Made by a program: the position numbers and the translations under genes. DNA of 64,000 nt from Crambe crambe (lineage: Eukaryota; Porifera; Demospongiae; Poecilosclerida; Crambeidae): assembly GCA_963924555.1 (NCBI GenBank), contig OZ004590.1:2705001-2769000 (forward strand), given 5' to 3'. Positions 6,916 through 64,000 of this stretch are shown piece after piece. How positions within the stretch are numbered: the stretch's first letter is position 1; each line of letters begins with the position of its first letter. Under the pieces are notes generated by a model that worked only from the letters and a program-made list of their open reading frames with translations, searched no databases and was not told where the DNA came from.

Positions 6916-11357
<4,442 letters not shown>

Positions 11358-34487: not shown

Positions 34488-34745
34488 GGAGGATGTCTGG
34501 TCTGACATTCACTCCCCTAAATCTCCGGGGCTTACGAAAAGGTGTTTGGACAGACAGTCCACAGACGGGTGGATGTTCCCAGTCTAGGGGACAAATAGAG
34601 TGTAAAGGGCCCGTCAGTTGGCCTGGGATGGGTCAGGCATCCCACCCACATGAGGGGAGTGGCCCTTGTAATTTTCCAACCTTTTCTCCATCTCGACATG
34701 AGTTACGGAGACTAGTCAGTTAATACAAAACCCGCACAATGTTAA
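34488..34745 (+). repeat. Split direct repeat B2 (258 bp)
   Basis: Second copy of B1 and the right end of the element. The 163 bp between A2 and B2 (34,325-34,487) are unique. Confidence 0.9.
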
Positions 34746-40182: not shown

Positions 40183-43100
40183 CTAAACTTTTCCTAGCTC
40201 AGAGATGATATCAGAGGCAGTTGGTCGGTCTTGTATCTGCTTTAAGCATTTCTTCACAAGGGAAAGGAACAGAGGGTGTTTAATGGAGCTCATTAGTCGA
40301 AATCTTTCCTCAGGAGGAGGTAGCACACCAGTGAACATCTCCATGATGAGAACTCCAAAGCTGAAGATGTCCATTTTGGGGGACTGTTGCTGAGGGTCAC
40401 TGGCTTCAGGGGCAGCATACGTGGGATTGCCAGGACCAGTAGTCTGAACCTTGTGCAGAAGGTTGACTGATCCATAGTCTGCCACTTTAGCTCTCCAACG
40501 ACTATTGGGCAGAGGTTCAAGAAGGACATTGGCACTACTGATGTCTCGATGGATGATGGGTTCTGGTTGCATCAAGTGGAGATAGTTGAGAGCTTTAGCC
40601 ACATCCACACATATGGAGGTGAGGACATTCACGGACAAATGCTGGTCTTCTTTTTCCAACTCTTTCCTGAGACTGGTGGGCATCAGCTCTGTAAGTATAA
40701 CCATCTCCCCTCTCAAGGTGGCACCGATGAACTGTATCAAGTTAGGATGACGTATTCTGGCAGCCATGTTCATCTCTCTCTTGAATAACTGTCTGTTGTG
40801 TTGAGAGAGGATTTGATGGTGAATGAGTTTAGCAGCCACACGTGTCCCTCTGAATAAAGCTACACTGACAGTAGCCCACCCTCCTCTCCCTAATTCTGGA
40901 CCTGCCAACTGGATCTCCTCCCTTCTCACAATCCACTGTGTCTCTAGTTGGGATAATTGCTCTTCATATAATTGTAGCCTCTGCTCATATTCTGCAGCTC
41001 TTTCATGATATCTCTGTTCTCTTTCTTCACATTCTGCTATAATAGCATTACATCTTTGCTCTGTCTCTCTTTCTAGTTGCAATTTTTGCAGCCTCAATCT
41101 CTGCTCATACTCTGCTATTTGTTCTAATTCTCTTAGCTTGTAGTTTTGGTCTAACTCTTTTAACCTTTCTGCATTTTCTTCATCTAGTTTCTCCTTGAGT
41201 ACAAGTCTTTCTTTGGAGGCCTCTTTTAATCTTTTCTCCAGCAATATACACTTCCTTTCAGCTTCTTTGGCCCTCTTTTCACTTATTTCCACTAATGTAT
41301 CTGTTTGCTTGGATGCTTTTTCTTTGTATGGCAAATTTTCCACAAAATTTGTCGATCTCTTAGCAGTGCAGACTAATTTACTCGCAATTTCTTCACTTTT
41401 AACACTTCTTTCTATAGAAATTTTTTGATCTTGTGTATTCTCCAAAGCTTTTTTAAGGAAATTTACTATAGTTGAATCACCTTTCAAAATGGCAATATCA
41501 AGTGAAGATTTTTGATTTTCATCCATGCATGAAGGGTCACAGTGCTGAGTGTCAATGAGATATTGTATGACATCAAGATGACCATTTTGACAGGCATGAT
41601 GAAGAGGTATTCTACTCCATCGACCCCTACTATTAGGATCACACTTTAAGTCTTCAATGAAGTACTTGACGACAGCCAATCTCCCATTAAGAGCAGCAAG
41701 GTGAAGAGGTGTGTTGCTGTCCTTGTTCTTGGACAATGGGTCACATTTGTGTTCCACAGTGAGGTACTTCACTGTGGCTAAGTGACCATTCGAACTGGCA
41801 CGGTGTAAGGGAGTGTATCCATCTTCATCTGTGCATGAAGGGTCACAGTGCTGAGTGTCAATGAGATACTGTATGACATCGAGATGACCATTTTCACTGG
41901 CATGATGAAGAGGTATTCTACCCCATCGACCCCTACTATTAGGATCACACTTTAGGTCTTCAATGAAGTACTTGACGACAGCCAATCTCCCATTAAGAGC
42001 AGAAAGGTGAAGAGGTGTGTTGCTGTCCTTGTTCTTGGACAATGGGTCACATTTGTGTTCCACAGTGAGGTACTTCACTGTGGCTAAGTGACCATTCGAA
42101 TTGGCATGGTGTAAGGGAGTAATGAGATACTGTATGACATCGAGATGACCATTTTCACTGGCATGATGAAGAGGTATTCTACCCCATTTACCCCTACTAT
42201 TAGGATCACACTTTAAGTCTTCAATGAAGTACTTGACGACAGCCAATCTCCCATTATGAGCAGCAAAGTGAAGAGGTGTGTTGCTGTCCTTGTTCTTGGA
42301 CAATGGGTCACATTTGTGTTCCACAGTGAGGTACTTCACTGTGGCTAAGTGACCATTCGAACTGGCATGGTGTAAGGGAGTGTATTCATCTTTATCTGTG
42401 CATGAAGGGTCACAGTGCTGAGTGTCAATGAGATACTGTATGACATCGAGATGACCATTTTCACTGGCATGATGAAGAGGTATTCTACCCCATCGACCCC
42501 TACTATTAGGATCACACTTTAAGTCTTCAATGAAGTACTTGACGACAGCCAATCTCCCATTAAGAGCAGCAAAGTGAAGAGGTGTGTTGCTGTCCTTGTT
42601 CTTGGACAATGGGTCACATTTGTGTTCCACAGTGAGGTACTTCACTGTGGCTAAGTGACCATTCGAACTGGCATGGTGTAAGGGAGTGTATCCATCTTTA
42701 TCTGTGCATGAAGGGTCACAGTGCTGAGTGTCAATGAGATACTGTATGACATCGAGATGACCATTTTCACTGGCATGATGAAGAGGTATTCTATCCCATC
42801 GACCCCTACTATTAGGATCACACTTTAAGTCTTCAATGAAGTACTTGACGACAGCCAATCTCCCATTAAGAGCAGCAAAGTGAAGAGGTGTGTTGCTGTC
42901 CTTGTTCTTGGACAATGGGTCACATTTATGTTCCACAGTGAGGTACTTCACTGTGGCTAAGTGACCATTCGAACTGGCATGGTGTAAGGGAGTGTATCCA
43001 TCTTCATCTGTGCATGAAGGGTCACAGTGCTGAGTGTCAATGAGATACTGTATGACATCGAGATGACCATTTTCACTGGCATGATGAAGAGGTATTCTAT

Positions 43101-46100: not shown

Positions 46101-49100
46101 GATACTGTATGACATCGAGATGACCATTTTCACTGGCATGATGAAGAGGTATTCTATCCCATTGACCTCTATTATTAGGATCACACTTTAAGTCTTCAAT
46201 GAAGTACTTGACGACAGCCAATCTCCCATTAAGAGCAGCAAAGTGAAGAGGTGTGTTGTTGTCTTTGTTCTTGGACAATGGATCACATTTGTGTTCCACA
46301 GTGAGGTACTTCACTGTGGCTAAGTGACCATTCGAACTGGCACGGTTTAAGGGAGTGTATCCATCTTCATCTGTGCATGAAGGGTCACAGTGCTGAGTGT
46401 CAATGAGATACTGTATGACATCGAAATGACCATTTTCACTGGCATGATGAAGAGGTATTCTACCCCATCGACCCCTACTATTAGGATCACACTTTAAGTC
46501 TTCAATGAAGTACTTGACGACAGCCAATCTCCCATTAAGAGCAGCAAGGTGAAGAGGTGTGCTGCTGTCCTTGTTCTTGGACAATGGGTCACATTTGTGT
46601 TCCACAGTGAGGTACTTCACTGTGGCTAAGTGACCATTCGAACTGGCACGGTGTAAGGGAGTGTATTTGTTTTCATCTGTGCATGAAGGGTTACAGTGCT
46701 GAGTGTCAATAAGATACTTTATGACATCGAGATGACCATTTTCACTGGCATGATGAAGAGGTATTCTACCCCATCGACCCCTACTATTAAGATCACACTT
46801 TAAGTCTTCAATGAAGTACTTGACGACAGCCAATCTCCCATTAAGAGCAGCAAGGTGAAGAGGTGTGTTGCTGTCCTTGTTCTTGGACAATGGGTCACAT
46901 TTGTGTTCCACAGTGAGGTACTTCACTGTGGCTAAGTGACCATTCGAACTGGCACGGTGTAAGGGAGTGTATTTGTTTTCATCTGTGCATGAAGGGTCAC
47001 AGTGCTGAGTGTCAATGAGATACTGTATGACATTGAGATGACCATTTTCACTGGCATGATGAAGAGGTATTCTATCCCATTGACCTCTATTATTAGGATC
47101 ACATTTTAAGTCTTCAATGAAGTACTTGACGACAGCCAATCTCCCATTAAGAGCAGCAAAGTGAAGAGGTGTGTTGTTGTCTTTGTTCTTGGACAATGGA
47201 TCACATTTGTGTTCCACAGTGAGGTACTTCACTGTGCCATTCGAACTGGCACGGTGTAAGGGAGTGTATCCATCTTCATCTGTGCATGAAGGGTCACAGT
47301 GCTGAGTGTCAATGAGATACTGTATGACATCGAGATGACCATTTTCACTGGCATGATGAAGAGGTATTCTACCCCATCGACCCCTACTATTAGGATCACA
47401 CTTTAAGTCTTCAATGAAGTACTTGACGACAGCCAATCTCCCATTAAGAGCAGCAAGGTGAAGAGGTGTGTTGCTGTCCTTGTTCTTGGACAATGGGTCA
47501 CATTTGTGTTCCACAGTGAGGTACTTCACTGTGGCTAAGTGATCATTCGAACTGGCACGGTGTAAGGGAGTGTATTTGTTTTCATCTGTGCATGAAGGGT
47601 CACAGTGCTGAGTGTCAATGAGATACTGTATGACATCGAGATGACCATTTTCACTGGCATGATGAAGAGGTATTCTACCCCATCGACCCCTACTATTAAG
47701 ATCACACTTTAAGTCTTCAATGAAGTACTTGACGACAGCCAATCTCCCATTAAGAGCAGCAAGGTGAACAGGTGTGTTGCTGTCCTTGTTCTTGGACAAT
47801 GGGTCACATTTGTGTTCCACAGTGAGGTACTTCACTGTGGCTAAGTGACCATTCGAACTGGCACGGTGTAAGGGAGTGTATTTGTTTTCATCTGTGCATG
47901 AAGGGTCACAGTGCTGAGTGTCAATGAGATACTGTATGACATTGAGATGACCATTTTCACTGGCATGATAAAGAGGTATTCTATCCCATTGACCTCTATT
48001 ATTAGGATCACATTTTAAGTCTTCAATGAAGTACTTGATGACAGCCAATCTCCCATTAAGAGCAGCAAAGTGAAGAGGTGTGTTGTTGTCCTTGTTCTTG
48101 GACAATGGATCACATTTGTGTTCCACAGTGAGGTACTTCACTGTGGCTAAGTGACCATTCGAACTGGCACGGTGTAAGGGAGTGTATCCATCTTCATCTG
48201 TGCATGAAGGGTCACAGTGCTGAGTGTCAATGAGATACTGTATGACATCGAGATGACCATTTTCACTGGCATGATGAAGAGGTATCCTACCCCATCGACC
48301 CCTACCATTAGGATCACACTTTAAGTCTTCAATGAAGTACTTGACGACAGCCAATCTCCCATTAAGAGCAGCAAGGTGAAGAGGTGTGTTGCTGTCCTTG
48401 TTCTTGGACAATGGGTCACATTTGTGTTCCACAGTGAGGTACTTCACTGTGGCTAAGTGACCATTCGAACTGGCACGGTGTAAGGGAGTGTATTTGTTTT
48501 CATCTGTGCATGAAGGGTCACAGTGCTGAGTGTCAATGAGATACTGTATGACATTGAGATGACCATTTTCACTGGCATGATGAAGAGGTATTCTATCCCA
48601 TTGACTTCTATTATTAGGATCACACTTTAAGTCTTCAATGAAGTACTTGACGACAGCCAATCTCCCATTAAGAGCAGCAAAGTGAAGAGGTGTGTTGTTG
48701 TCTTTGTTCTTGGACAATGGATCACATTTGTGTTCCACAGTGAGGTACTTCACTGTGGCTAAGTGACCATTCGAACTGGCACGGTGTAAGGGAGTGTATC
48801 CATCTTCATCTGTGCATGAAGGGTCACAGTGCTGAGTGTCAATGAGATACTGTATGACATTGAGATGACCATTTTCACTGGCATGATGAAGAGGTATTCT
48901 ACCCCATCGACCCCTACCATTAGGATCACACTTTAAGTCTTCAATGAAGTACTTGACGACAGCCAATCTCCCATTAAGAGCAGCAAGGTGAAGAGGTGTG
49001 TTGCTGTCCTTGTTCTTGGACAATGGGTCACATTTGTGTTGCACAGTGAGGTACTTCACTGTGGCTAAGTGACCATTCGAACTGGCACGGTGTAAGGGAG

Positions 49101-52100: not shown

Positions 52101-55100
52101 GGTACTTCACTGTGGGTAAGTGACCATTCAAACTGGCACAGTGTAAAGGAGTGTATCCATCTTCATTTGTGCATGAAGGGCCACAGTGCTGAGTGTCAAT
52201 GAGATACTGTATGACATCGAGATGACCATTTTCACTGGCATGATGAAGAGGTATTCTACCCCATCGATCCCTACTATTAGGATCACACTTTAAGTCTTCA
52301 ATGAAGTACTTGACGACAGCCAATCTCCCATTAAGAGCAGCAAAATGAAGAGGTGTGTTGCTGTCCTTGTTCTTGGACAATGGGTCACATTTGTGTTCCA
52401 CAGTGAGGTACTTCACTGTGGGTAAGTGACCATTCAAACTGGCACAGTGTAAAGGAGTGTATCCATCTTCATCTGTGCATGAAGGGCCACAGTGCTGAGT
52501 GTCAATGAGATACTGTATGACATCGAGATGACCATTTTCACTGGCATCATGAAGAGGTATTCTACCCCATCGATCCCTACTATTAGGATCACACTTTAAG
52601 TCTTCAATGAAGTACTTGACGACAGCCAATCTCCCATTAAGAGCAGCAAAATGAAGAGGTGTGTTGCTGTCCTTGTTCTTGGACAATGGGTCACATTTGT
52701 GTTCCACAGTGAGGTACTTCACTGTGGCTAAGTGACCATTCTGACTGGCACAGTGTAAAGGAGTGTATCCATCTTCATCTGTGCATGAAGGGCCACAGTG
52801 TTGAGTGTCAATGAGATACTGTATGACATCGAGATGACCATTTTCACTGGCATCATGAAGAGGTATTCTACCCCATCGATCCCTACTATTAGGATCACAC
52901 TTTAAGTCTTCAATGAAGTACTTGACGACAGCCAATCTCCCATAATGAGCAGCAAAGTGAAGGGGTGTGTTGCTGTCCTTGTTCTTGGACAATGGGTCAC
53001 ATTTGTGTTCCACAGTGAGGTACTTCACTGTGGCTAAGTGACCATTCGAACTGGCACGGTGTAAGGGAGTGTATCCATCTTCATCTGTGCATGAAGGGTC
53101 ACAGTGCTGAGTGTCAATGAGATACTGTATGACATCGAAATGACCATTTTCACTGGCATGATGAAGAGGTATTCTACCCCATCGACCCCTACTATTAGGA
53201 TCACACTTTAAGTCTTCAATGAAGTACTTGACGACAGCCAATCTCCCATTAAGAGCAGCAAGGTGAAGAGGTGTGCTGCTGTCCTTGTTCTTGGACAATG
53301 GGTCACATTTGTGTTCCACAGTGAGGTACTTCACTGTGGCTAAGTGACCATTCGAACTGGCACGGTGTAAGGGAGTGTATTTGTTTTCATCTGTGCATGA
53401 AGGGTTACAGTGCTGAGTGTCAATAAGATACTTTATGACATCGAGATGACCATTTTCACTGGCATGATGAAGAGGTATTCTACCCCATCGACCCCTACTA
53501 TTAAGATCACACTTTAAGTCTTCAATGAAGTACTTGACGACAGCCAATCTCCCATTAAGAGCAGCAAGGTGAAGAGGTGTGTTGCTGTCCTTGTTCTTGG
53601 ACAATGGGTCACATTTGTGTTCCACAGTGAGGTACTTCACTGTGGCTAAGTGACCATTCGAACTGGCACGGTGTAAGGGAGTGTATTTGTTTTCATCTGT
53701 GCATGAAGGGTCACAGTGCTGAGTGTCAATGAGATACTGTATGACATTGAGATGACCATTTTCACTGGCATGATGAAGAGGTATTCTATCCCATTGACCT
53801 CTATTATTAGGATCACATTTTAAGTCTTCAATGAAGTACTTGACGACAGCCAATCTCCCATTAAGAGCAGCAAAGTGAAGAGGTGTGTTGTTGTCTTTGT
53901 TCTTGGACAATGGATCACATTTGTGTTCCACAGTGAGGTACTTCACTGTGCCATTCGAACTGGCACGGTGTAAGGGAGTGTATCCATCTTCATCTGTGCA
54001 TGAAGGGTCACAGTGCTGAGTGTCAATGAGATACTGTATGACATCGAGATGACCATTTTCACTGGCATGATGAAGAGGTATTCTACCCCATCGACCCCTA
54101 CTATTAGGATCACACTTTAAGTCTTCAATGAAGTACTTGACGACAGCCAATCTCCCATTAAGAGCAGCAAGGTGAAGAGGTGTGTTGCTGTCCTTGTTCT
54201 TGGACAATGGGTCACATTTGTGTTCCACAGTGAGGTACTTCACTGTGGCTAAGTGATCATTCGAACTGGCACGGTGTAAGGGAGTGTATTTGTTTTCATC
54301 TGTGCATGAAGGGTCACAGTGCTGAGTGTCAATGAGATACTGTATGACATCGAGATGACCATTTTCACTGGCATGATGAAGAGGTATTCTACCCCATCGA
54401 CCCCTACTATTAAGATCACACTTTAAGTCTTCAATGAAGTACTTGACGACAGCCAATCTCCCATTAAGAGCAGCAAGGTGAACAGGTGTGTTGCTGTCCT
54501 TGTTCTTGGACAATGGGTCACATTTGTGTTCCACAGTGAGGTACTTCACTGTGGCTAAGTGACCATTCGAACTGGCACGGTGTAAGGGAGTGTATTTGTT
54601 TTCATCTGTGCATGAAGGGTCACAGTGCTGAGTGTCAATGAGATACTGTATGACATTGAGATGACCATTTTCACTGGCATGATAAAGAGGTATTCTATCC
54701 CATTGACCTCTATTATTAGGATCACATTTTAAGTCTTCAATGAAGTACTTGATGACAGCCAATCTCCCATTAAGAGCAGCAAAGTGAAGAGGTGTGTTGT
54801 TGTCCTTGTTCTTGGACAATGGATCACATTTGTGTTCCACAGTGAGGTACTTCACTGTGGCTAAGTGACCATTCGAACTGGCACGGTGTAAGGGAGTGTA
54901 TCCATCTTCATCTGTGCATGAAGGGTCACAGTGCTGAGTGTCAATGAGATACTGTATGACATCGAGATGACCATTTTCACTGGCATGATGAAGAGGTATC
55001 CTACCCCATCGACCCCTACCATTAGGATCACACTTTAAGTCTTCAATGAAGTACTTGACGACAGCCAATCTCCCATTAAGAGCAGCAAGGTGAAGAGGTG

Positions 55101-58100
55101 TGTTGCTGTCCTTGTTCTTGGACAATGGGTCACATTTGTGTTCCACAGTGAGGTACTTCACTGTGGCTAAGTGACCATTCGAACTGGCACGGTGTAAGGG
55201 AGTGTATTTGTTTTCATCTGTGCATGAAGGGTCACAGTGCTGAGTGTCAATGAGATACTGTATGACATTGAGATGACCATTTTCACTGGCATGATGAAGA
55301 GGTATTCTATCCCATTGACTTCTATTATTAGGATCACACTTTAAGTCTTCAATGAAGTACTTGACGACAGCCAATCTCCCATTAAGAGCAGCAAAGTGAA
55401 GAGGTGTGTTGTTGTCTTTGTTCTTGGACAATGGATCACATTTGTGTTCCACAGTGAGGTACTTCACTGTGGCTAAGTGACCATTCGAACTGGCACGGTG
55501 TAAGGGAGTGTATCCATCTTCATCTGTGCATGAAGGGTCACAGTGCTGAGTGTCAATGAGATACTGTATGACATTGAGATGACCATTTTCACTGGCATGA
55601 TGAAGAGGTATTCTACCCCATCGACCCCTACCATTAGGATCACACTTTAAGTCTTCAATGAAGTACTTGACGACAGCCAATCTCCCATTAAGAGCAGCAA
55701 GGTGAAGAGGTGTGTTGCTGTCCTTGTTCTTGGACAATGGGTCACATTTGTGTTGCACAGTGAGGTACTTCACTGTGGCTAAGTGACCATTCGAACTGGC
55801 ACGGTGTAAGGGAGTGTATTTGTTTTCATCTGTGCATGAAGGGTCACAGTGCTGAGTGTCAATGAGATACTGTATGACATTGAGATGACCATTTTCACTG
55901 GCATGATGAAGAGGTATTCTATCCCATTGACTTCTATTATTAGGATCACACTTTAAGTCTTCAATGAAGTACTTGACGACAGCCAATCTCCCATTAAGAG
56001 CAGCAAAGTGAAGAGGTGTGTTGTTGTCTTTGTTCTTGGACAATGGATCACATTTGTGTTCCACAGTGAGGTACTTCACTGTGGCTAAGTGACCATTCGA
56101 ACTGGCACGGTGTAAGGGAGTGTATCCATCTTCATCTGTGCATGAAGGGTCACAGTGCTGAGTGTCAATGAGATACTGTATGACATTGAGATGACCATTT
56201 TCACTGGCATGATGAAGAGGTATTCTACCCCATCGACCCCTACCATTAGGATCACACTTTAAGTCTTCAATGAAGTACTTGACGACAGCCAATCTCCCAT
56301 TAAGAGCAGCAAGGTGAAGAGGTGTGTTGCTGTCCTTGTTCTTGGACAATGGGTCACATTTGTGTTCCACAGTGAGGTACTTCACTGTGGCTAAGTGACC
56401 ATTCGAACTGGCACGGTGTAAGGGAGTGTATTTGTTTTCATCTGTGCATGAAGGGTCACAGTGCTGAGTGTCAATGAGATACTGTATGACATCGAGATGA
56501 CTATTTTCACTGGCATGATGAAGAGGTATTCTATCCCATTGACCTCTATTATTAGGATCACACTTTAAGTCTTCAATGAAGTACTTGACGACAGCCAATC
56601 TCCCATTAAGAGCAGCAAAGTGAAGAGGTGTGTTGTTGTCTTTGTTCTTGGACAATGGATCACATTTGTGTTCCACAGTGAGGTACTTCACTGTGGCTAA
56701 GTGACCATTCGAACTGGCACGGTGTAAGGGAGTGTATCCATCTTCATCTGTGCATGAAGGGTCACAGTGCTGAGTGTCAATGAGATACTGTATGACATCG
56801 AGATGACCATTTTCACTGGCATGATGAAGAGGTATTCTACCCCATCGACCCCTACTATTAAGATCATACTTTAAGTCTTCAATGAAGTACTTGACGACAG
56901 CCAATCTCCCATTAAGAGCAGCAAGGTGAAGAGGTGTGTTGCTGTCCTTGTTCTTGGACAATGGGTCACATTTGTGTTCCACAGTGAGGTACTTCACTGT
57001 GGCTAAGTGACCATTCGAACTGGCACGGTGTAAGGGAGTGTATTTGTTTTCATCTGTGCATGAAGGGTCACAGTGCTGAGTGTCAATGAGATACTGTATG
57101 ACATTGAGATGACCATTTTCACTGGCATGATGAAGAGGTATTCTATCCCATTGACCTCTATTATTAGGATCACATTTTAAGTCTTCAATGAAGTACTTGA
57201 CGACAGCCAATCTCCCATTAAGAGCAGCAAAGTGAAGAGGTGTGTTGTTGTCTTTGTTCTTGGACAATGGATCACATTTGTGTTCCACAGTGAGGTACTT
57301 CACTGTGCCATTCGAACTGGCACGGTGTAAGGGAGTGTATCCATCTTCATCTGTGCATGAAGGGTCACAGTGCTGAGTGTCAATGAGATACTGTATGACA
57401 TCGAGATGACCATTTTCACTGGCATGATGAAGAGGTATTCTACCCCATCGACCCCTACTATTAGGATCACACTTTAAGTCTTCAATGAAGTACTTGACGA
57501 CAGCCAATCTCCCATTAAGAGCAGCAAGGTGAAGAGGTGTGTTGCTGTCCTTGTTCTTGGACAATGGGTCACATTTGTGTTCCACAGTGAGGTACTTCAC
57601 TGTGGCTAAGTGATCATTCGAACTGGCACGGTGTAAGGGAGTGTATTTGTTTTCATCTGTGCATGAAGGGTCACAGTGCTGAGTGTCAATGAGATACTGT
57701 ATGACATCGAGATGACCATTTTCACTGGCATGATGAAGAGGTATTCTATCCCATTGACCTCTATTATTAGGATCACACTTTAAGTCTTCAATGAAGTACT
57801 TGACGACAGCCAATCTCCCATTAAGAGCAGCAAAGTGAAGAGGTGTGTTGTTGTTTTTGTTCTTGGACAATGGATCACATTTGTGTTCCACAGTGAGGTA
57901 CTTCACTGTGGCTAAGTGACCATTCGAACTGGCACGGTGTAAGGGAGTGTATCCATCTTCATCTGTGCATGAAGGGTCACAGTGCTGAGTGTCAATGAGA
58001 TACTGTATGACATCGAGATGACCATTTTCACTGGCATGATGAAGAGGTATTCTACCCCATCGACCCCTACTATTAGGATCACACTTTAAGTCTTCAATGA

Positions 58101-61100
58101 AGTACTTGACGACAGCCAATCTCCCATTAAGAGCAGCAAGGTGAAGAGGTGTGTTGCTGTCCTTGTTCTTGGACAATGGGTCACATTTGTGTTCCACAGT
58201 GAGGTACTTCATTGTGGCTAAGTGACCATTCGAACTGGCACGGTGTAAGGGAGTGTATTTGTTTTCATCTGTGCATGAAGGGTCACAGTGCTGAGTGTCA
58301 ATGAGATACTGTATGACATCGAGATGACCATTTTCACTGGCATGATGAAGAGGTATTCTATCCCATTGACCTCTATTATTAGGATCACACTTTAAGTCTT
58401 CAATGAAGTACTTGACGACAGCCAATCTCCCATTAAGAGCAGCAAAGTGAAGAGGTGTGTTGTTGTCTTTGTTCTTGGACAATGGATCACATTTGTGTTC
58501 CACAGTGAGGTACTTCACTGTGGCTAAGTGACCATTCGAACTGGCACAGTGTAAAGGAGTGTATCCATCTTCATTTGTGCATGAAGGGCCACAGTGCTGA
58601 GTGTCAATGAGATACTGTATGACATCGAGATGACCATTTTCACTGGCATGATGAAGAGGTATTCTACCCCATCGATCCCTACTATTAGGATCACACTTTA
58701 AGTCTTCAATGAAGTACTTGACGACAGCCAATCTCCCATTAAGAGCAGCAAAATGAAGAGGTGTGTTGTTGTCCTTGTTCTTGGACAATGGGTCACATTT
58801 GTGTTCCACAGTGAGGTACTTCACTGTGGGTAAGTGACCATTCAAACTGGCACAGTGTAAAGGAGTGTATCCATCTTCATTTGTGCATGAAGGGCCACAG
58901 TGCTGAGTGTCAATGAGATACTGTATGACATCGAGATGACCATTTTCACTGGCATGATGAAGAGGTATTCTACCCCATCGATCCCTACTATTAGGATCAC
59001 ACTTTAAGTCTTCAATGAAGTACTTGACGACAGCCAATCTCCCATTAAGAGCAGCAAAATGAAGAGGTGTGTTGCTGTCCTTGTTCTTGGACAATGGGTC
59101 ACATTTGTGTTCCACAGTGAGGTACTTCACTGTGGGTAAGTGACCATTCAAACTGGCACAGTGTAAAGGAGTGTATCCATCTTCATCTGTGCATGAAGGG
59201 CCACAGTGCTGAGTGTCAATGAGATACTGTATGACATCGAGATGACCATTTTCACTGGCATCATGAAGAGGTATTCTACCCCATCGATCCCTACTATTAG
59301 GATCACACTTTAAGTCTTCAATGAAGTACTTGACGACAGCCAATCTCCCATTAAGAGCAGCAAAATGAAGAGGTGTGTTGCTGTCCTTGTTCTTGGACAA
59401 TGGGTCACATTTGTGTTCCACAGTGAGGTACTTCACTGTGGCTAAGTGACCATTCTGACTGGCACAGTGTAAAGGAGTGTATCCATCTTCATCTGTGCAT
59501 GAAGGGCCACAGTGTTGAGTGTCAATGAGATACTGTATGACATCGAGATGACCATTTTCACTGGCATCATGAAGAGGTATTCTACCCCATCGATCCCTAC
59601 TATTAGGATCACACTTTAAGTCTTCAATGAAGTACTTGACGACAGCCAATCTCCCATAATGAGCAGCAAAGTGAAGGGGTGTGTTGCTGTCCTTGTTCTT
59701 GGACAATGGGTCACATTTGTGTTCCACAGTGAGGTACTTCACTGTGGCTAAGTGACCATTCGAACTGGCACGGTGTAAGGGAGTGTCTCTGTCTTCATCT
59801 GTGCATGAAGGGTCACAGTGCTGAGTGTTAATGAGATACTGTATGACATCGAGATGACAATTTTGACTGGCATGATGAAGAGGTATTCTATCCCATCGAC
59901 CCCTACTATTAGGATCACACTTTAAGTCTTCAATGATGTACTTGACGACATCCAATCTTCCATTAAAAGCAGCAAGGTGAAGAGGTGTGTCGATGTCCGT
60001 GTTCTCGGACAATGGGTCACATTTGTGTTCTATAGTGAGGTACTTCACTGTGGCTAAGTCACCATTCGAACTGGCATGGTGTAAGGGAGTGTATTTGTTT
60101 TCATTTGTGCATGAAGGGTCACAGTGCTGAGTGTCAATAAGATACTGTATGACATCGAGATGACCATTTTCACTGGCATGATGAAGAGGTAATCTATCCC
60201 ATTGACCTCTATTATTAGGATCACACTTTAAGTCTTCAATGAAGTACTTGACGACAGCCAATCTCCCATAATGAGCAGCAAAGTGAAGGGGTGTGTTGCT
60301 GTCCTTGTTCTTGGACAATGGGTCACATTTGTGTTCCACAGTGAGGTACTTCACTGTGGCTAAGTGACCATTCGAACTGGCACGGTGTAAGGGAGTGTCT
60401 CTGTCTTCATCTGTGCATGAAGGGTCACAGTGCTGAGTGTTAATGAGATACTGTATGACATCGAGATGACAATTTTGACTGGCATGATGAAGAGGTATTC
60501 TACCCCATCGATCCCTACTATTAGGATCACACTTTAAGTCTTCAATGAAGTACTTGACGACAGCCAATCTCCCATTAAGAGCAGCAAGGTGAAGAGGTGT
60601 GTTGCTGTCCTTGTTCTTGGACAATGGGTCACATTTGTGCTCCACAGTGAGGTACTTCACTGTGGCTAAGTGACCATTCGAACTGGCACGGTGTAAGGGA
60701 GTGTCTCTGTCTTTATCTGTGCATGAAGGGTCACAGTGCTGAGTGTCAATGAGATACTGTATGACATCGAGATGACCATTTTCACTGGCATGATGAAGAG
60801 GTATTCTACCTCTTTGACCCCTATTTTTAGGATCACACTTTAAGTCTTCGATGAAGTACTTGACGACAGCCAATCTCCCATTAAGAGCAGCAAAGTGAAG
60901 AGGTGTGTTGTTATCTTTGTTCTTGGACAATGGATCACATTTGTGTTGCACAGTGAGGTACTTCACTGTGGCTAAGTGACCATTCAAACTGGCACGGTGT
61001 AAGGGAGTGCATCCATCTTCATCGGTGCATGAAGGGTCACAGTGCTGAGTGTCAATGAGATACTGTATGACATCGAGATGACCATTTTCACTGGCATGAT

Positions 61101-64000
61101 GAAGAGGTATTCTACCTCTTTGACCCCTATTTTTAGGATCACACTTTAAGTCTTTGATGAAGTACTTGACGACAGCCAATCTCCCATTAAGAGCAGCAAA
61201 GTGAAGAGGTGTGTTGTTGTCTTTGTTCTTGGACAATGGATCACATTTGTGTTGCACAGTGAGGTACTTCACTGTGGCTAAGTGACCATTCAAACTGGCA
61301 TGGTGTAAGGGAGTGCATCCATCTTCATCGGTGCATGAAGGGTCACAGTGCTGAGTGTCAATGAGATACTGTATGACATCGAGATGACCATTTTCACTGG
61401 CATGATGAAGAGGTAGTCTATCCCATTGACCTCTATTATTAGGATCACACTTTAAGTCTTCAATGAAGTACTTGACGACAGCCAATCTCCCATTAAGAGC
61501 AGCAAAATGAAGAGGTGTGTTGTTGTCCTTGTTCTTGGACAATGGATCACATTTGTGTTGCACAGTGAGGTACTTCACTGTGGCTAAGTGACCATTCAAA
61601 CTGGCACGGTGTAAGGGAATGTATCCATCTTCATCTGTGCATGAAGAGTCACAGTGCTGAGTGTCAATGAGATACTGTATGACATCGAGATGACCATTTT
61701 CACTGGCATGATGAAGAGGTATTCTACCTCTTTGACCCCTACTATTAAGATCACACTTTAAGTCTTCGATGAAGTACTTGACGACAGCCAATCTCCCATT
61801 AAGAGCAGCAAAGTGAAGAGGTGTGTTGCTGTCCTTGTTCTTGGACAATGGGTCACATTTGTGTTCCACAGTGAGGTACTTCACTGTGGGTAAGTGACCA
61901 TTCGAACTGGCATGGTGTAAGGGAGTGTCTCTGTCTTCATCTGTGCATGAAGGGTTACAGTGCTGAGTGTCAATGAGATACTGTATGACATCGAGATGAC
62001 CATTTTCACTGGCATGATGAAGAGGTAATCTATCCCATTGACCTCTATTATTAGGATCACACTTTAAGTCTTCAATGAAGTACTTGACGACAGCCAATCT
62101 CCCATTAAGAGCAGCAAAGTGAAGAGGTGTGTTGTTGTCTTTGTTCTTGGACAATGGATCACATTTGTGTTGCACAGTGAGGTACTTCACTGTGGCTAAG
62201 TGACCATTCAAACTGGCATGGTGTAAGGGAGTGTATCCATCTTCATCTGTGCATGAAAGGTCACAGTGCTGAGTGTCAATGAGATACTGTATGACATCGA
62301 GATGACCATTTTCACTGGCATGATGAAGAGGTAATCTATCCCATTGACCTCTATTATTAGGATCACACTTTAAGTCTTCAATGAAGTACTTGACGACAGC
62401 CAATCTCCCATTAAGAGCAGCAAAGTGAAGAGGTGTGTTGTTATCTTTGTTCTTGGACAATAGATCACATTTGTGTTGCACAGTGAGGTACTTCACTGTG
62501 GCTAAGTGACCATTCAAACTGGCACAGTGTAAGGGAGAGTATCCATCTTCATCTGTGCATGAAGGGTCACAGTGCTGAGTGTCAATGAGATACTGTATGA
62601 CATCGAGATGACCATTTTCACTGGCATGATGAAGAGGTAATCTATCCCATTGACCTCTATTATTAGGATCACACTTTAAGTCTTCAATGAAGTACTTGAC
62701 GACAGCCAATCTCCCATTAAGAGCAGCAAAGTGAAGAGGTGTGCTGTTGTCTTTGTTCTTGGACAATGGATCACATTTGTGTTGCACAGTGAGGTACTTC
62801 ACTGTGGCTAAGTGACCATTCAAACTGGCACAGAGTAAGGGAGTGTATCCATCTTCATCTGTGCATGAAGGGTCACAGTGCTGAGTGTCAATGAGATTCT
62901 GTATGACATCGAGATGACCATTTTGACTGGCATCATGAAGAGGTATTCTACCTCTTTGACCAATACTATTAGGATCACACTTTAAGTCTTCAACAAAATA
63001 TTTGACGACAGCTAATCTCCCTTTAAGAGCAGCAAAGTGAAAAGGTGTGTTGTTGTCTTTGTTCTTGGACAATGGATCACATTTGTGTTGCACAGTGAGG
63101 TACTTCACTGTGGCTAAGTGACCATTCAAACTGGCACGGTGTAAGGGAGTGCATCCATCTTCATCTGTGCATGAAGGGTCACAGTGCTGAGTGTCAATGA
63201 GATACTGTATGACATCGAGATGACCATTTTCACTGGCATGATGAAGAGGTATTCTACCTCTTTGACCCCTACTATTAGGATCACACTTTAAGTCTTCAAT
63301 GAAGTACTTGACGACAGCCAATCTCCCATTAAGAGCAGCAAAGTGAAGAGGTGTGTTGCTGTCCTTGTTCTTGGACAATGGGTCACATTTGTGTTCCACA
63401 GTGAGGTACTTCACTGTGGCTAAGTGACCATTAAGACTGGCGTAGTGTAGTGGCAAAGTACCATTTTTGTTTTCATTTATATCACATTGATGCACATTTA
63501 TAAGGTACTGGATGATATCCAGGTTACCACCAACACTTGCTGCATGGAGACAGGTTCTGCCATCATCACCAGTGCAGTGAGGGTCACAGTGCATATCAGT
63601 GATCAGGTACACCACTATGTCCATGTGACCCTCCTGACAGGCAAGGTACAATGGGATCACTCCTTCATCATCTCGACTGGATGGGTCACAGCTCTGATTG
63701 TCCACTAAGTATTTAAGCACACTGAGGTGTCCTTCATGACTGGCTGTATGCACTAGTGACCTGCCTGATGCCATGGTGAATGCATCACTTTTCCTTTCCT
63801 TTGTTGTTTTAAAGTGTGCATCTGCTTGCTTCTCCTCTATCATGTATTTGAGTACATCTAGATGCCCTCCTCCAGAAGCAAGGTAAACAGGAGACCTCCC
63901 ATGGTCATCCATAAGGGTGATGTTACCACCTGCTTCCACCAATAAAAATTTTACAGTAGCGAAATGGCCATGCTGTGCAGCCAGATGGAGACAGGACAGA
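40183..64000 (-). CDS. Giant ankyrin-repeat protein kinase B, 5' end beyond window
   Basis: One uninterrupted frame of about 7,938 codons (about 0.9 MDa), open to the right edge; by comparison with gene A about 150 N-terminal residues are missing. The frame at the edge reads LSCLHLAAQHGHFATVKFLL, matching gene A residues 150-169. After several varied ankyrin repeats come about 72 tri-ankyrin units (plus 63,475 to 41,521), each 102 aa: TPLHRASSNGHLATVKYLT, TPLHFAALNGRLAVVKYF and IPLHHASENGHLDVIQYL types. A coiled coil follows (about 41,450-40,910; EYEQRLRLQKLQLERETEQR). The TKL-like kinase domain (about 40,905-40,186) has GRGGWATVSVAL, VAAK, HRDISSANVLL, DYG in place of DFG, APE and DIFSFGVLIMEMF. 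All catalytic residues are present, so activity is plausible. Likely a filamentous ankyrin solenoid with a kinase at its end; ligand and pathway unknown. Confidence 0.9.
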   Translation of the reverse strand, partial: LSCLHLAAQHGHFATVKFLLVEAGGNITLMDDHGRSPVYLASGGGHLDVLKYMIEEKQADAHFKTTKERKSDAFTMASGRSLVHTASHEGHLSVLKYLVDNQSCDPSSRDDEGVIPLYLACQEGHMDIVVYLITDMHCDPHCTGDDGRTCLHAASVGGNLDIIQYLINVHQCDINENKNGTLPLHYASLNGHLATVKYLTVEHKCDPLSKNKDSNTPLHFAALNGRLAVVKYFIEDLKCDPNSRGQRGRIPLHHASENGHLDVIQYLIDTQHCDPSCTDEDGCTPLHRASLNGHLATVKYLTVQHKCDPLSKNKDNNTPFHFAALKGRLAVVKYFVEDLKCDPNSIGQRGRIPLHDASQNGHLDVIQNLIDTQHCDPSCTDEDGYTPLLCASLNGHLATVKYLTVQHKCDPLSKNKDNSTPLHFAALNGRLAVVKYFIEDLKCDPNNRGQWDRLPLHHASENGHLDVIQYLIDTQHCDPSCTDEDGYSPLHCASLNGHLATVKYLTVQHKCDLLSKNKDNNTPLHFAALNGRLAVVKYFIEDLKCDPNNRGQWDRLPLHHASENGHLDVIQYLIDTQHCDLSCTDEDGYTPLHHASLNGHLATVKYLTVQHKCDPLSKNKDNNTPLHFAALNGRLAVVKYFIEDLKCDPNNRGQWDRLPLHHASENGHLDVIQYLIDTQHCNPSCTDEDRDTPLHHASSNGHLPTVKYLTVEHKCDPLSKNKDSNTPLHFAALNGRLAVVKYFIEDLKCDLNSRGQRGRIPLHHASENGHLDVIQYLIDTQHCDSSCTDEDGYIPLHRASLNGHLATVKYLTVQHKCDPLSKNKDNNTPLHFAALNGRLAVVKYFIEDLKCDPNNRGQWDRLPLHHASENGHLDVIQYLIDTQHCDPSCTDEDGCTPLHHASLNGHLATVKYLTVQHKCDPLSKNKDNNTPLHFAALNGRLAVVKYFIKDLKCDPKNRGQRGRIPLHHASENGHLDVIQYLIDTQHCDPSCTDEDGCTPLHRASLNGHLATVKYLTVQHKCDPLSKNKDNNTPLHFAALNGRLAVVKYFIEDLKCDPKNRGQRGRIPLHHASENGHLDVIQYLIDTQHCDPSCTDKDRDTPLHRASSNGHLATVKYLTVEHKCDPLSKNKDSNTPLHLAALNGRLAVVKYFIEDLKCDPNSRDRWGRIPLHHASQNCHLDVIQYLINTQHCDPSCTDEDRDTPLHRASSNGHLATVKYLTVEHKCDPLSKNKDSNTPLHFAAHYGRLAVVKYFIEDLKCDPNNRGQWDRLPLHHASENGHLDVIQYLIDTQHCDPSCTNENKYTPLHHASSNGDLATVKYLTIEHKCDPLSENTDIDTPLHLAAFNGRLDVVKYIIEDLKCDPNSRGRWDRIPLHHASQNCHLDVIQYLINTQHCDPSCTDEDRDTPLHRASSNGHLATVKYLTVEHKCDPLSKNKDSNTPLHFAAHYGRLAVVKYFIEDLKCDPNSRDRWGRIPLHDASENGHLDVIQYLIDTQHCGPSCTDEDGYTPLHCASQNGHLATVKYLTVEHKCDPLSKNKDSNTPLHFAALNGRLAVVKYFIEDLKCDPNSRDRWGRIPLHDASENGHLDVIQYLIDTQHCGPSCTDEDGYTPLHCASLNGHLPTVKYLTVEHKCDPLSKNKDSNTPLHFAALNGRLAVVKYFIEDLKCDPNSRDRWGRIPLHHASENGHLDVIQYLIDTQHCGPSCTNEDGYTPLHCASLNGHLPTVKYLTVEHKCDPLSKNKDNNTPLHFAALNGRLAVVKYFIEDLKCDPNSRDRWGRIPLHHASENGHLDVIQYLIDTQHCGPSCTNEDGYTPLHCASSNGHLATVKYLTVEHKCDPLSKNKDNNTPLHFAALNGRLAVVKYFIEDLKCDPNNRGQWDRIPLHHASENGHLDVIQYLIDTQHCDPSCTDENKYTPLHRASSNGHLATMKYLTVEHKCDPLSKNKDSNTPLHLAALNGRLAVVKYFIEDLKCDPNSRGRWGRIPLHHASENGHLDVIQYLIDTQHCDPSCTDEDGYTPLHRASSNGHLATVKYLTVEHKCDPLSKNKNNNTPLHFAALNGRLAVVKYFIEDLKCDPNNRGQWDRIPLHHASENGHLDVIQYLIDTQHCDPSCTDENKYTPLHRASSNDHLATVKYLTVEHKCDPLSKNKDSNTPLHLAALNGRLAVVKYFIEDLKCDPNSRGRWGRIPLHHASENGHLDVIQYLIDTQHCDPSCTDEDGYTPLHRASSNGTVKYLTVEHKCDPLSKNKDNNTPLHFAALNGRLAVVKYFIEDLKCDPNNRGQWDRIPLHHASENGHLNVIQYLIDTQHCDPSCTDENKYTPLHRASSNGHLATVKYLTVEHKCDPLSKNKDSNTPLHLAALNGRLAVVKYFIEDLKYDLNSRGRWGRIPLHHASENGHLDVIQYLIDTQHCDPSCTDEDGYTPLHRASSNGHLATVKYLTVEHKCDPLSKNKDNNTPLHFAALNGRLAVVKYFIEDLKCDPNNRGQWDRIPLHHASENSHLDVIQYLIDTQHCDPSCTDENKYTPLHRASSNGHLATVKYLTVEHKCDPLSKNKDSNTPLHLAALNGRLAVVKYFIEDLKCDPNGRGRWGRIPLHHASENGHLNVIQYLIDTQHCDPSCTDEDGYTPLHRASSNGHLATVKYLTVEHKCDPLSKNKDNNTPLHFAALNGRLAVVKYFIEDLKCDPNNRSQWDRIPLHHASENGHLNVIQYLIDTQHCDPSCTDENKYTPLHRASSNGHLATVKYLTVQHKCDPLSKNKDSNTPLHLAALNGRLAVVKYFIEDLKCDPNGRGRWGRIPLHHASENGHLNVIQYLIDTQHCDPSCTDEDGYTPLHRASSNGHLATVKYLTVEHKCDPLSKNKDNNTPLHFAALNGRLAVVKYFIEDLKCDPNNRSQWDRIPLHHASENGHLNVIQYLIDTQHCDPSCTDENKYTPLHRASSNGHLATVKYLTVEHKCDPLSKNKDSNTPLHLAALNGRLAVVKYFIEDLKCDPNGRGRWGRIPLHHASENGHLDVIQYLIDTQHCDPSCTDEDGYTPLHRASSNGHLATVKYLTVEHKCDPLSKNKDNNTPLHFAALNGRLAVIKYFIEDLKCDPNNRGQWDRIPLYHASENGHLNVIQYLIDTQHCDPSCTDENKYTPLHRASSNGHLATVKYLTVEHKCDPLSKNKDSNTPVHLAALNGRLAVVKYFIEDLKCDLNSRGRWGRIPLHHASENGHLDVIQYLIDTQHCDPSCTDENKYTPLHRASSNDHLATVKYLTVEHKCDPLSKNKDSNTPLHLAALNGRLAVVKYFIEDLKCDPNSRGRWGRIPLHHASENGHLDVIQYLIDTQHCDPSCTDEDGYTPLHRASSNGTVKYLTVEHKCDPLSKNKDNNTPLHFAALNGRLAVVKYFIEDLKCDPNNRGQWDRIPLHHASENGHLNVIQYLIDTQHCDPSCTDENKYTPLHRASSNGHLATVKYLTVEHKCDPLSKNKDSNTPLHLAALNGRLAVVKYFIEDLKCDLNSRGRWGRIPLHHASENGHLDVIKYLIDTQHCNPSCTDENKYTPLHRASSNGHLATVKYLTVEHKCDPLSKNKDSSTPLHLAALNGRLAVVKYFIEDLKCDPNSRGRWGRIPLHHASENGHFDVIQYLIDTQHCDPSCTDEDGYTPLHRASSNGHLATVKYLTVEHKCDPLSKNKDSNTPLHFAAHYGRLAVVKYFIEDLKCDPNSRDRWGRIPLHDASENGHLDVIQYLIDTQHCGPSCTDEDGYTPLHCASQNGHLATVKYLTVEHKCDPLSKNKDSNTPLHFAALNGRLAVVKYFIEDLKCDPNSRDRWGRIPLHDASENGHLDVIQYLIDTQHCGPSCTDEDGYTPLHCASLNGHLPTVKYLTVEHKCDPLSKNKDSNTPLHFAALNGRLAVVKYFIEDLKCDPNSRDRWGRIPLHHASENGHLDVIQYLIDTQHCGPSCTNEDGYTPLHCASLNGHLPTVKYLTVEHKCDPLSKNKDNNTPLHFAALNGRLAVVKYFIEDLKCDPNSRDRWGRIPLHHASENGHLDVIQYLIDTQHCGPSCTNEDGYTPLHCASSNGHLATVKYLTVEHKCDPLSKNKDNNTPLHFAALNGRLAVVKYFIEDLKCDPNNRGQWDRIPLHHASENGHLDVIQYLIDTQHCDPSCTDENKYTPLHRASSNGHLATMKYLTVEHKCDPLSKNKDSNTPLHLAALNGRLAVVKYFIEDLKCDPNSRGRWGRIPLHHASENGHLDVIQYLIDTQHCDPSCTDEDGYTPLHRASSNGHLATVKYLTVEHKCDPLSKNKNNNTPLHFAALNGRLAVVKYFIEDLKCDPNNRGQWDRIPLHHASENGHLDVIQYLIDTQHCDPSCTDENKYTPLHRASSNDHLATVKYLTVEHKCDPLSKNKDSNTPLHLAALNGRLAVVKYFIEDLKCDPNSRGRWGRIPLHHASENGHLDVIQYLIDTQHCDPSCTDEDGYTPLHRASSNGTVKYLTVEHKCDPLSKNKDNNTPLHFAALNGRLAVVKYFIEDLKCDPNNRGQWDRIPLHHASENGHLNVIQYLIDTQHCDPSCTDENKYTPLHRASSNGHLATVKYLTVEHKCDPLSKNKDSNTPLHLAALNGRLAVVKYFIEDLKYDLNSRGRWGRIPLHHASENGHLDVIQYLIDTQHCDPSCTDEDGYTPLHRASSNGHLATVKYLTVEHKCDPLSKNKDNNTPLHFAALNGRLAVVKYFIEDLKCDPNNRGQWDRIPLHHASENSHLDVIQYLIDTQHCDPSCTDENKYTPLHRASSNGHLATVKYLTVEHKCDPLSKNKDSNTPLHLAALNGRLAVVKYFIEDLKCDPNGRGRWGRIPLHHASENGHLNVIQYLIDTQHCDPSCTDEDGYTPLHRASSNGHLATVKYLTVEHKCDPLSKNKDNNTPLHFAALNGRLAVVKYFIEDLKCDPNNRSQWDRIPLHHASENGHLNVIQYLIDTQHCDPSCTDENKYTPLHRASSNGHLATVKYLTVQHKCDPLSKNKDSNTPLHLAALNGRLAVVKYFIEDLKCDPNGRGRWGRIPLHHASENGHLNVIQYLIDTQHCDPSCTDEDGYTPLHRASSNGHLATVKYLTVEHKCDPLSKNKDNNTPLHFAALNGRLAVVKYFIEDLKCDPNNRSQWDRIPLHHASENGHLNVIQYLIDTQHCDPSCTDENKYTPLHRASSNGHLATVKYLTVEHKCDPLSKNKDSNTPLHLAALNGRLAVVKYFIEDLKCDPNGRGRWGRIPLHHASENGHLDVIQYLIDTQHCDPSCTDEDGYTPLHRASSNGHLATVKYLTVEHKCDPLSKNKDNNTPLHFAALNGRLAVIKYFIEDLKCDPNNRGQWDRIPLYHASENGHLNVIQYLIDTQHCDPSCTDENKYTPLHRASSNGHLATVKYLTVEHKCDPLSKNKDSNTPVHLAALNGRLAVVKYFIEDLKCDLNSRGRWGRIPLHHASENGHLDVIQYLIDTQHCDPSCTDENKYTPLHRASSNDHLATVKYLTVEHKCDPLSKNKDSNTPLHLAALNGRLAVVKYFIEDLKCDPNSRGRWGRIPLHHASENGHLDVIQYLIDTQHCDPSCTDEDGYTPLHRASSNGTVKYLTVEHKCDPLSKNKDNNTPLHFAALNGRLAVVKYFIEDLKCDPNNRGQWDRIPLHHASENGHLNVIQYLIDTQHCDPSCTDENKYTPLHRASSNGHLATVKYLTVEHKCDPLSKNKDSNTPLHLAALNGRLAVVKYFIEDLKCDLNSRGRWGRIPLHHASENGHLDVIKYLIDTQHCNPSCTDENKYTPLHRASSNGHLATVKYLTVEHKCDPLSKNKDSSTPLHLAALNGRLAVVKYFIEDLKCDPNSRGRWGRIPLHHASENGHFDVIQYLIDTQHCDPSCTDEDGYTPLNRASSNGHLATVKYLTVEHKCDPLSKNKDNNTPLHFAALNGRLAVVKYFIEDLKCDPNNRGQWDRIPLHHASENGHLDVIQYLIDTQHCDPSCTNENKYTPLHHASLNGHLATVKYLTVQHKCDPLSKNKDNNTPLHFAALNGRLAVVKYFIEDLKCDPNSRGRWGRIPLHHASENGHLDVIQYLIDTQHCDPSCTDEDGYTPLHRASSNGHLATVKYLTVLHKCDPLSKNKDNNTPLHFAALNGRLAVVKYFIEDLKCDPNNRGQWDRIPLHHASENGHLDVIRYLIDTQHCDPSCTNENKYTPLHHASSNGHLATVKYLTVEHKCDPLSKNKDSNTPLHLAALNGRLAVVKYFIEDLKCDPNSRGRWGRIPLHASENGHLDVIQYLIDTQHCDPSCTDKDGYTPLHCASLNGHLATVKYLTVQHKCDALSKNKGNNTPLHFAALNGRLAVVKYFIEDLKCDPNSRGRWGRIPLYHASENGHLDVIQYLIDTQHCDPSCTDEDGYTPLHRASLNGHLATVKYLTVQHKCDPLSKNKDNNTPLHFAALNGRLAVVKYFIEDLKCDPNNRGQWDRIPLHHASENGHLDVIRYLIDTQHCDPSCTNENKYTPLHHASLNGHLATVKYLTVEHKCDTLSKNKDSNTPLHLAALNGRLAVVKYFIEDLKCDPNNRGQWDRIPLHDASKNGHLDVIQYLIDTQHCDPSCTDEDRDTPLHHASSNGHLATVKYLTVEHKCDPLSKNKDSNTPLHLAALNGRLAVIKYFIEDLKCDPNSRGRWGRIPLHHASENGHLDVIQYLIDTQHCDPSCTDKDGYTPLHHASSNGYLATVKYLTVQHKCDPLSKNKDHNTPLHFAALNGRLAVVKYFIEDLKCDPNNRGQWDRIPLHHASENGHLDVIQYLIDTQHCDPSCTNENKYTPLHHASSNGHLATVKYLTVEHKCDPLSKNKDSNTPLHLAALNGRLAVVKYFIEDLKCDPNSRGRWGRIPLHHASENGHLDVIQYLIDTQHCDPSCTDEDGYTPLHRASLNGHLATVKYLTVQHKCDPLSKNKDNNTPLHFAALNGRYAVVKYFIEDLKCDPNNRGQWDRIPLHHASENGHLDVIQYLIDTQHCDPSCTDEDGYTPLHHASSNGHLATVKYLTVEHKCDPLSKNKDSNTPLHFAALNGRLAVVKYFIEDLKCDPNSRGRWDRIPLHHASENGHLDVIQYLIDTQHCDPSCTDKDGYTPLHHASSNGHLATVKYLTVEHKCDPLSKNKDSNTPLHFAALNGRLAVVKYFIEDLKCDPNSRGRWGRIPLHHASENGHLDVIQYLIDTQHCDPSCTDKDEYTPLHHASSNGHLATVKYLTVEHKCDPLSKNKDSNTPLHFAAHNGRLAVVKYFIEDLKCDPNSRGKWGRIPLHHASENGHLDVIQYLITPLHHANSNGHLATVKYLTVEHKCDPLSKNKDSNTPLHLSALNGRLAVVKYFIEDLKCDPNSRGRWGRIPLHHASENGHLDVIQYLIDTQHCDPSCTDEDGYTPLHRASSNGHLATVKYLTVEHKCDPLSKNKDSNTPLHLAALNGRLAVVKYFIEDLKCDPNSRGRWSRIPLHHACQNGHLDVIQYLIDTQHCDPSCMDENQKSSLDIAILKGDSTIVNFLKKALENTQDQKISIERSVKSEEIASKLVCTAKRSTNFVENLPYKEKASKQTDTLVEISEKRAKEAERKCILLEKRLKEASKERLVLKEKLDEENAERLKELDQNYKLRELEQIAEYEQRLRLQKLQLERETEQRCNAIIAECEEREQRYHERAAEYEQRLQLYEEQLSQLETQWIVRREEIQLAGPELGRGGWATVSVALFRGTRVAAKLIHHQILSQHNRQLFKREMNMAARIRHPNLIQFIGATLRGEMVILTELMPTSLRKELEKEDQHLSVNVLTSICVDVAKALNYLHLMQPEPIIHRDISSANVLLEPLPNSRWRAKVADYGSVNLLHKVQTTGPGNPTYAAPEASDPQQQSPKMDIFSFGVLIMEMFTGVLPPPEERFRLMSSIKHPLFLSLVKKCLKQIQDRPTASDIISELGKV
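41521..63475. repeat. Coding tandem array, 306-bp unit, about 72 copies
   Basis: The unit is three ankyrin repeats. Landmarks such as tgaagggtcacagtgctgag recur every 306 bp. Units alternate between two main forms (NNRGQWDR with DGY; NSRGRWGR with NKY), so there is also a 612-bp rhythm. Copies differ by few bases. Deletions seen: 9 bp (four times, tgtgccattcg), 3 bp near 45,225, and a larger one near 42,119 joining QYLI to TPLHHAN; all keep the frame. Confidence 0.92.
46348..59785. repeat. 6,714-bp tandem segmental duplication inside gene B
   Basis: Copy 1 about 46,348-53,061 and copy 2 about 53,062-59,785. Rare markers recur at an offset of exactly 6,714: gtatccatcttcatttgtgc at 51,847 and 58,561; gacatcgaaatgacc at about 46,417 and 53,131; aaggtgaacaggtgtg at about 47,760 and 54,474; gttgttgtttttgttc at about 51,132 and 57,846. 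One difference was noticed at the left border (46,347 T, 53,061 G). It corresponds to 2,238 codons, 22 tri-ankyrin units less 18 bp. Confidence 0.88.

Follow-up and report, generated by a model that had tools for sequence, protein, structure and literature searches.

An open frame in the sponge Crambe crambe raises the question of whether a single gene can encode a protein kinase with more than 200 ankyrin repeats and, if so, how such an array arose and what it might do. We analyzed the 64,000-bp stretch of contig OZ004590.1 in which this frame lies (hereafter, the window). The original prediction described a single-exon gene with a frame of about 7,938 codons, comprising about 72 tri-ankyrin units (about 215 repeats) followed by a coiled coil and a kinase domain with intact catalytic residues, and proposed that its product is among the longest ankyrin solenoids and acts as a molecular spring or as a multivalent trap reporting to a kinase.

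An uninterrupted ankyrin-kinase frame

The frame (hereafter, the giant) and a shorter paralogue, P0001, were annotated as follows.

40183..63999, minus strand: open frame of the giant with ankyrin array, coiled coil and kinase (7,938 codons)
63490..63999, minus strand: diverged N-terminal ankyrin repeats of the giant, from the alignment to P0001
41518..63432, minus strand: array of 306-bp units (102 aa, three repeats each), 72 anchored units
15189..18977, minus strand: paralogue P0001, 1,262 aa, intact from ATG to stop, with ankyrin repeats, coiled coil and kinase

The predicted frame was recovered on the minus strand with no stop over its 7,938 codons and was still open at the 5' edge of the window, the encoded protein having a mass of 895.7 kDa within the window. 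Since residue 1 of the giant aligned with residue 150 of the complete P0001, the first ~149 residues of the giant probably fall beyond the window edge; the proposed single exon was supported by the unbroken frame inside the window, and this verdict is limited to that part. Judging by the synonymous changes between units, ~5.6 nonsense changes would be expected in the array, but no stop was found (Poisson probability of about 0.004, calculated by hand), and the observed changes in unit length all preserved the frame. Ka/Ks between the giant and P0001 was 0.24 for the kinase over 239 codons, indicating purifying selection on this domain, and 0.36 for the N-terminal repeats, where 207 codons were aligned within the first 240 residues. 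Constraint was much weaker between the units of the array, with a dN/dS of 0.74 over all sites.

The neighboring genes were eukaryotic and apparently split by introns, as judged by Pfam.

8238-10660, plus strand: SRP54 gene pieces with GTPase and signal-peptide-binding domains, at about 8.2 and 10.4-10.7 kb (Pfam)
Left edge of the window: kinesin piece (Pfam)

Elsewhere in the window, a 283-codon open frame at 32700-34800 (plus strand) resembled a tyrosine-recombinase element by eye and had no Pfam match, similar peptides were repeated around 33.8-34.7 kb near this frame, and a 166-bp sequence was exactly doubled at 32023-32356.

Count and anatomy of the array

With an E cutoff of 1, Pfam PF00023 detected 116 ankyrin stretches in one half of the frame and 104 in the other, and these 220 tandem stretches class the giant as an ankyrin-repeat protein. 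A count of 220-221 repeats was obtained with our own ankyrin HMM, which was trained on other proteins with both the giant and P0001 left out. The HMM counts and the 72 anchored units agreed well with the predicted ~215 repeats. Among the 71 spacings of the tri-ankyrin units, 65 were 102 aa, four were 99 aa, one was 101 aa and one was 87 aa, and Tandem Repeats Finder reported a 306-bp period with 95% matches across 42121-63432.

Identity was 95.4% between neighboring units and 96.6% between next-but-one units, and each even lag exceeded its odd neighbors over the 25 lags computed, with a slight margin at lags 10-13, suggesting that the growth unit was mostly a pair (612 bp). The array appears to alternate two unit subtypes in a dimeric higher-order structure with strong homogenization. 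The mean difference between distinct units was 5.0%. The predicted structure of the array was of low confidence (mean pLDDT of 62.7), and for this reason we make no claim about array geometry.

An exact duplication and the true length

A further identity peak at lag 22 (97.3%) corresponded to an exact tandem duplication, in which a run of 6,725 nt recurred 6,714 bp further on with no mismatch.

53062..59786, minus strand: first copy of the duplication, an exact run of 6,725 nt sharing 11 nt with the second copy
46348..53072, minus strand: second copy, exact run

Given that distinct units differed by 5.0% on average, the exact copy must either have arisen very recently or reflect misassembly. 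Within one copy, two halves of 3,357 bp were 96.2% alike. Outside the second copy lay 51 of the 72 units, 48 of which were distinct, and removal of this copy left 5,700 codons, 51 units and about 154 repeats, the last figure being scaled by proportion from the unit count. The duplication must be confirmed before the repeat number of 220 is quoted.

Coiled coil and kinase domain

40942..41340, minus strand: charged coiled-coil-like segment, with the left limit on the protein side set by eye
40186..40920, minus strand: kinase domain of predicted TKL type (PF00069, alignment and model)
40828-40830, minus strand: VAAK lysine codon, from residue numbers
40543-40545, minus strand: HRD aspartate codon, from residue numbers
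40477-40479, minus strand: DYG aspartate codon, from residue numbers

The predicted coiled coil and kinase were both recovered. The kinase matched PF00069 with an E-value of 5.6e-32, and a confident model of the coil and kinase (mean pLDDT of 84.4, pTM of 0.77) placed the last 41 residues of the coil (40942-41064) in one helix that continues directly into the kinase. In an 18-sequence family alignment whose first row was the giant, with HRD at H173-R174-D175 and with DYG, the residues K80, E98, H173, R174, N180, D197 and G199 (first-row numbering) were invariant. The glycine loop of the giant reads GRGGWATV. The giant has the full catalytic residue set of active eukaryotic protein kinases and is predicted to be active.

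When the kinase was compared with solved structures by sequence, CTR1 ranked first among the best 60 of 1,964 matches, which also included TAK1, IRAK4, LRRK2 and TNNI3K, as well as one EGFR entry and WNK1/WNK3 from outside the TKL group. In a fold comparison of the model, the best match was a tyrosine kinase, with BRAF mixed in at about equal scores, and the assignment of the giant to the TKL group, which we consider sound, consequently rests on sequence.

The tandem paralogue P0001

P0001 has the plan of the giant in a shorter form, with 23-24 repeats by our own HMM and, with an E cutoff of 0.001, 16 PF00023 stretches. Three glycine-loop residues (WAT) present in the giant and in the 16 remaining rows of the alignment are missing from its kinase, which may therefore be impaired. 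The 3' flanks of the two genes were also aligned.

38900..40182, minus strand: 3' flank of the giant, aligned to the P0001 3' flank

The flanks were 73% identical with gaps (270 of 1,392 columns), and the giant and P0001 therefore look like segmental duplicates at the DNA level rather than retrocopies of each other.

Variation between units

We assigned the sites of the unit to concave, core, convex and basal surface classes according to Table 1 of PMC8415598, a choice that was made when the variable sites had already been inspected once. The repeats of the giant have 34 residues against 33 in that numbering, and we counted the extra residue as basal; among the sites so added is unit position 46, one of the most variable. 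Mean entropy was 0.645 for the 24 concave sites and 0.121, 0.188 and 0.163 for the core, convex and basal sites, respectively (0.176 for convex plus basal sites). None of 20,000 permutations reached the concave value, and the same held when only exposed sites were compared. When alternative residues were each counted once over 47 distinct units, 38 fell at the 24 concave sites and 54 at the other 78. Five units of P0001 provided a separate check, though of ancestry shared with the units of the giant, with 29 alternative residues at the 24 concave sites and 33 elsewhere (0 of 10,000 permutations). Variation thus appears to sit mainly on the concave face in both proteins. A narrower test on DARPin-type positions 2, 3, 5, 13, 14 and 26 gave a weaker signal (p = 0.01), and a wider set of 11 positions, picked by eye, was set aside as evidence.

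The pN/pS values were 1.05 for concave, 0.52 for core, 0.84 for convex and 0.25 for basal sites, and pS was 0.11 for concave and 0.10 for basal sites against 0.035 for core and convex sites. A concave pN/pS of 1.05 is neutral-like, not clearly positive, and would fit relaxed constraint as well as diversification, and with the raised concave pS, the pattern could in part come from two linked unit subtypes being exchanged in patches. PMC8415598 describes the concave face as enriched in protein contacts and as the main binding side of ankyrin proteins, and its positions as among the most diverse in ankyrin repeats generally, so concave diversity is not special to this array.

A kinase family with differing N-terminal modules

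Using the coil and kinase of P0001 as the query, we searched proteins of 0.7-2.2 thousand residues and obtained 170 matches, of which 120 were listed. The named matches in the upper part of the list came from sponges (Amphimedon, Halichondria and Geodia) and from corals or anemones, the coral records including Porites and Stylophora, while plant, algal and other kinases ranked lower. The records were unnamed, 'uncharacterized' or variously named. Sixteen relatives in the 18-sequence alignment were 41-63% identical to the kinase fragment of the giant, an HRDxSSxNVLL region was common to the giant and the family with small changes, and DYG was present in 14 of the 18 rows. With its coil directly before the kinase and the motif set of the family, the giant belongs to these sponge and coral coiled-coil TKL kinases.

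In the family, the C-terminal coiled coil and kinase were constant and the N-terminal module was variable. According to the Pfam column for the 120 listed of 170 proteins, 17 had Kelch, 14 ubiquitin, 12 CAP-Gly, 7 ankyrin, 4 HSP70 and 3 OTU modules, and A20, USP-type DUSP, macro and LRR-Roc, among others, were seen once each. When 17 members were scanned with Pfam, the expected module was recovered in 15 (seven ankyrin, three polyubiquitin, and one each of OTU, DUSP, A20, HSP70 and Kelch) and none in the two for which none was listed. The seven listed ankyrin members had few repeats, with at most six Ank_2 stretches in P0025, a distant relative that also has a Roc domain. Among 661 candidates of about 4.4-13.9 thousand residues, no giant-sized relative with this kinase was found at E <= 0.001, sizes of ~2.2-4.4 thousand residues falling outside both kinase search windows.

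A quick kinase tree, with some long branches, was built from 84 rows. For this tree, 88 of the 120 listed matches were labelled by hand from the Pfam column and P0001 was added; the other 32 were left out, and six labelled ones were dropped for short matches. The ankyrin label (9 of 84 rows) needed four changes on the tree, where the starred branches force four, against a shuffled mean of 8.7, and ankyrins were therefore joined to, or lost from, the family kinase more than once. The tree supports N-terminal module exchange in this family. The nearest sister set of the giant and P0001 was composed of 13 polyubiquitin kinases (98*). These sister kinases, P0006-P0018, carry tandem ubiquitin-like repeats, with 5-8 Pfam ubiquitin stretches in each of the three scanned, and growth of N-terminal module repeats may accordingly recur in this branch.

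A pattern search of genome contigs gave 40 matches, eight of which encoded a relative (best identity of 37%, all in records titled bacterial), and none of five pattern matches in viral contigs did so; at this sensitivity, nothing points to an origin in bacteria or viruses. No description of such a kinase family was found among the titles and abstract openings listed in our literature search, by which subscription papers were mostly not covered.

Comparison with other long ankyrin proteins and known kinases

A search with part of the giant's array, run on proteins of about 4.4-13.9 thousand residues, gave 80 matches. Counted alike, the giant had 221 repeats with a longest unbroken run of 213, against 76-153 repeats and longest runs of 8-43 in the seven other proteins with the most repeats. 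The claim that this array is among the longest known was thus upheld within the searched set, where the best other values were 153 repeats and a run of 43, but the implied rarity was not, since these counts show that other ankyrin giants exist. What sets the giant apart is its kinase together with an array that is homogeneous and unbroken. No citable figure for the maximum ankyrin repeat number was found in the literature searched.

P0122 (6,572 aa) is likewise a very long ankyrin protein, with 153 repeats counted along its whole length, but its repeats are divergent, and as an HMM under-counts divergent repeats, their number may exceed 153. Its identity to the array of the giant was 33% over the query region. 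Its repeats are of the CDP type like those of the giant, both of its ends are ankyrin-like and its listed Pfam domains include no kinase; it is possibly another sponge giant. Ankyrin giants of Wolbachia, Amoebophilus and Haliotis are very long like the giant here but also have divergent repeats, and all seven counted proteins differ from it in their shorter unbroken runs (8-43).

Canonical ankyrins (ANK1-3) and NOMPC share a long ankyrin solenoid with the giant and have about 24-29 repeats. A canonical ankyrin was ruled out by the lack of ZU5, UPA and death domains by Pfam, and Pfam detected no NOMPC-type membrane channel domain in the protein as far as it is encoded inside the window, its N-terminus lying beyond the edge. 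TNNI3K also has ankyrin repeats N-terminal to a TKL kinase, albeit far fewer, and its solved kinase domain matched that of the giant (E = 5.8e-20), but CTR1, WNK1, TAK1 and IRAK4 matched better, and TNNI3K orthology was ruled out because the family kinases are much closer. LRRK2, which carries DYG instead of DFG, is a TKL kinase matched to the giant by both sequence and fold; a LRRK2/Roco kinase was ruled out as neither Roc-COR nor LRR was found by Pfam.

Discussion

Building on the domain plan, repeat count, paralogue, family and unit similarity, which are all apparent from the sequence itself, we tentatively propose a reading whose probability we place a little short of likely: the giant is a family member with an arm of ~72 units that grew by unequal exchange and serves as a polyvalent intracellular binding arm clustering the kinase. 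The array would have grown as units of 306 bp and 612 bp underwent round after round of unequal exchange. Sharing a scaffold and differing mainly on the concave face, the units might bind either one ligand in many copies or several ligands that are related, the coiled coil would pair or cluster the protein, and neighboring kinase domains could then activate each other on a repetitive target. The N-terminal module would be an exchangeable input, and the coiled coil and kinase a constant output. Such avidity is the simplest working model for the giant. The originally suggested multivalent trap seems plausible, fitting the concave-face variation and the exchangeable N-terminal modules, but the binding-arm reading is weakened by P0001, for which about 24 repeats suffice, and part of the array length may be an assembly artefact.

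Two rivals are the strongest, namely an inflated assembly and neutral minisatellite growth, and both can be partly compatible with a binding arm. It is distinctly possible, if on balance doubtful, that the plan is real but its length inflated, the exact duplication being an assembly error and the true array having ~51 units (~154 repeats) or some other length. Zero mismatches in 6,725 nt contrast with differences of 5.0% between units and 3.8% between the 3,357-bp halves, and the array is long and near-identical, the type of region in which assemblers tend to err. However, the offset is in frame and equals 22 units minus two 9-bp deletions, which recent unequal crossing-over would likewise produce, and steps of this kind seem to occur here, to judge by a smaller exact copy (611 nt, offset 612 bp) and by the older 3,357-bp doubling. 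Assembly collapse is, moreover, as possible as expansion, and the claim of a giant array stands after the cut to 5,700 codons. Rather unlikely, in our judgment, is a coding minisatellite subject to neutral unequal exchange, for which a few repeats, the coil and the kinase would suffice, while length varied between individuals without consequence and growth was tolerated because ankyrin units add without breaking the frame. The dN/dS of 0.74 between units, the concave pN/pS of about 1, the strong homogenization with dimeric higher-order structure and the ~24 repeats of P0001 would all be expected from it, and PMC5120217 describes, as a phase that repeat evolution generally passes through, a strong relaxation of purifying selection between the repeats within a protein, accompanied by positive selection. 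Neutral growth is harder to reconcile with 72 units free of stops, with constrained core and basal faces (0.52 and 0.25) and with the cost of making a ~0.9-MDa protein.

We regard as improbable a mechanical spring or tether, whose superhelix would transmit force to the kinase. The solenoid is long and uninterrupted and ankyrin stacks in other proteins are known to be springy, but no anchor to a membrane or to the cytoskeleton was recognized by Pfam in the portion of the frame inside the window, the variation falls on the binding face instead of evenly, and other family members carry Kelch, ubiquitin or HSP70 modules, which are not springs; the spring of the original prediction found no specific support. 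A decaying pseudogene or unexpressed frame, to which the loss of three glycine-loop residues from the P0001 kinase might point, is very improbable given the intact 7,938-codon frame, the kinase Ka/Ks of 0.24 and the catalytic residues retained by the giant.

If its length holds, the array of the giant, which is joined to an enzyme, is longer without a break than that of any other protein compared, and offers a natural test of the limit of solenoid growth and of repeat number tuning signaling. More broadly, the giant points to a sponge and coral kinase family with exchangeable sensing modules. It is conceivable, although we consider it unlikely, that sponges hold a modular germline-encoded sensing system in which one coiled-coil kinase output is repeatedly refitted with different inputs, and that the branch with ankyrin repeats has evolved an oversized arm, subject to rapid rearrangement and with a binding face that varies between units, which may serve, for example, in the recognition of microbes or non-self by avidity.
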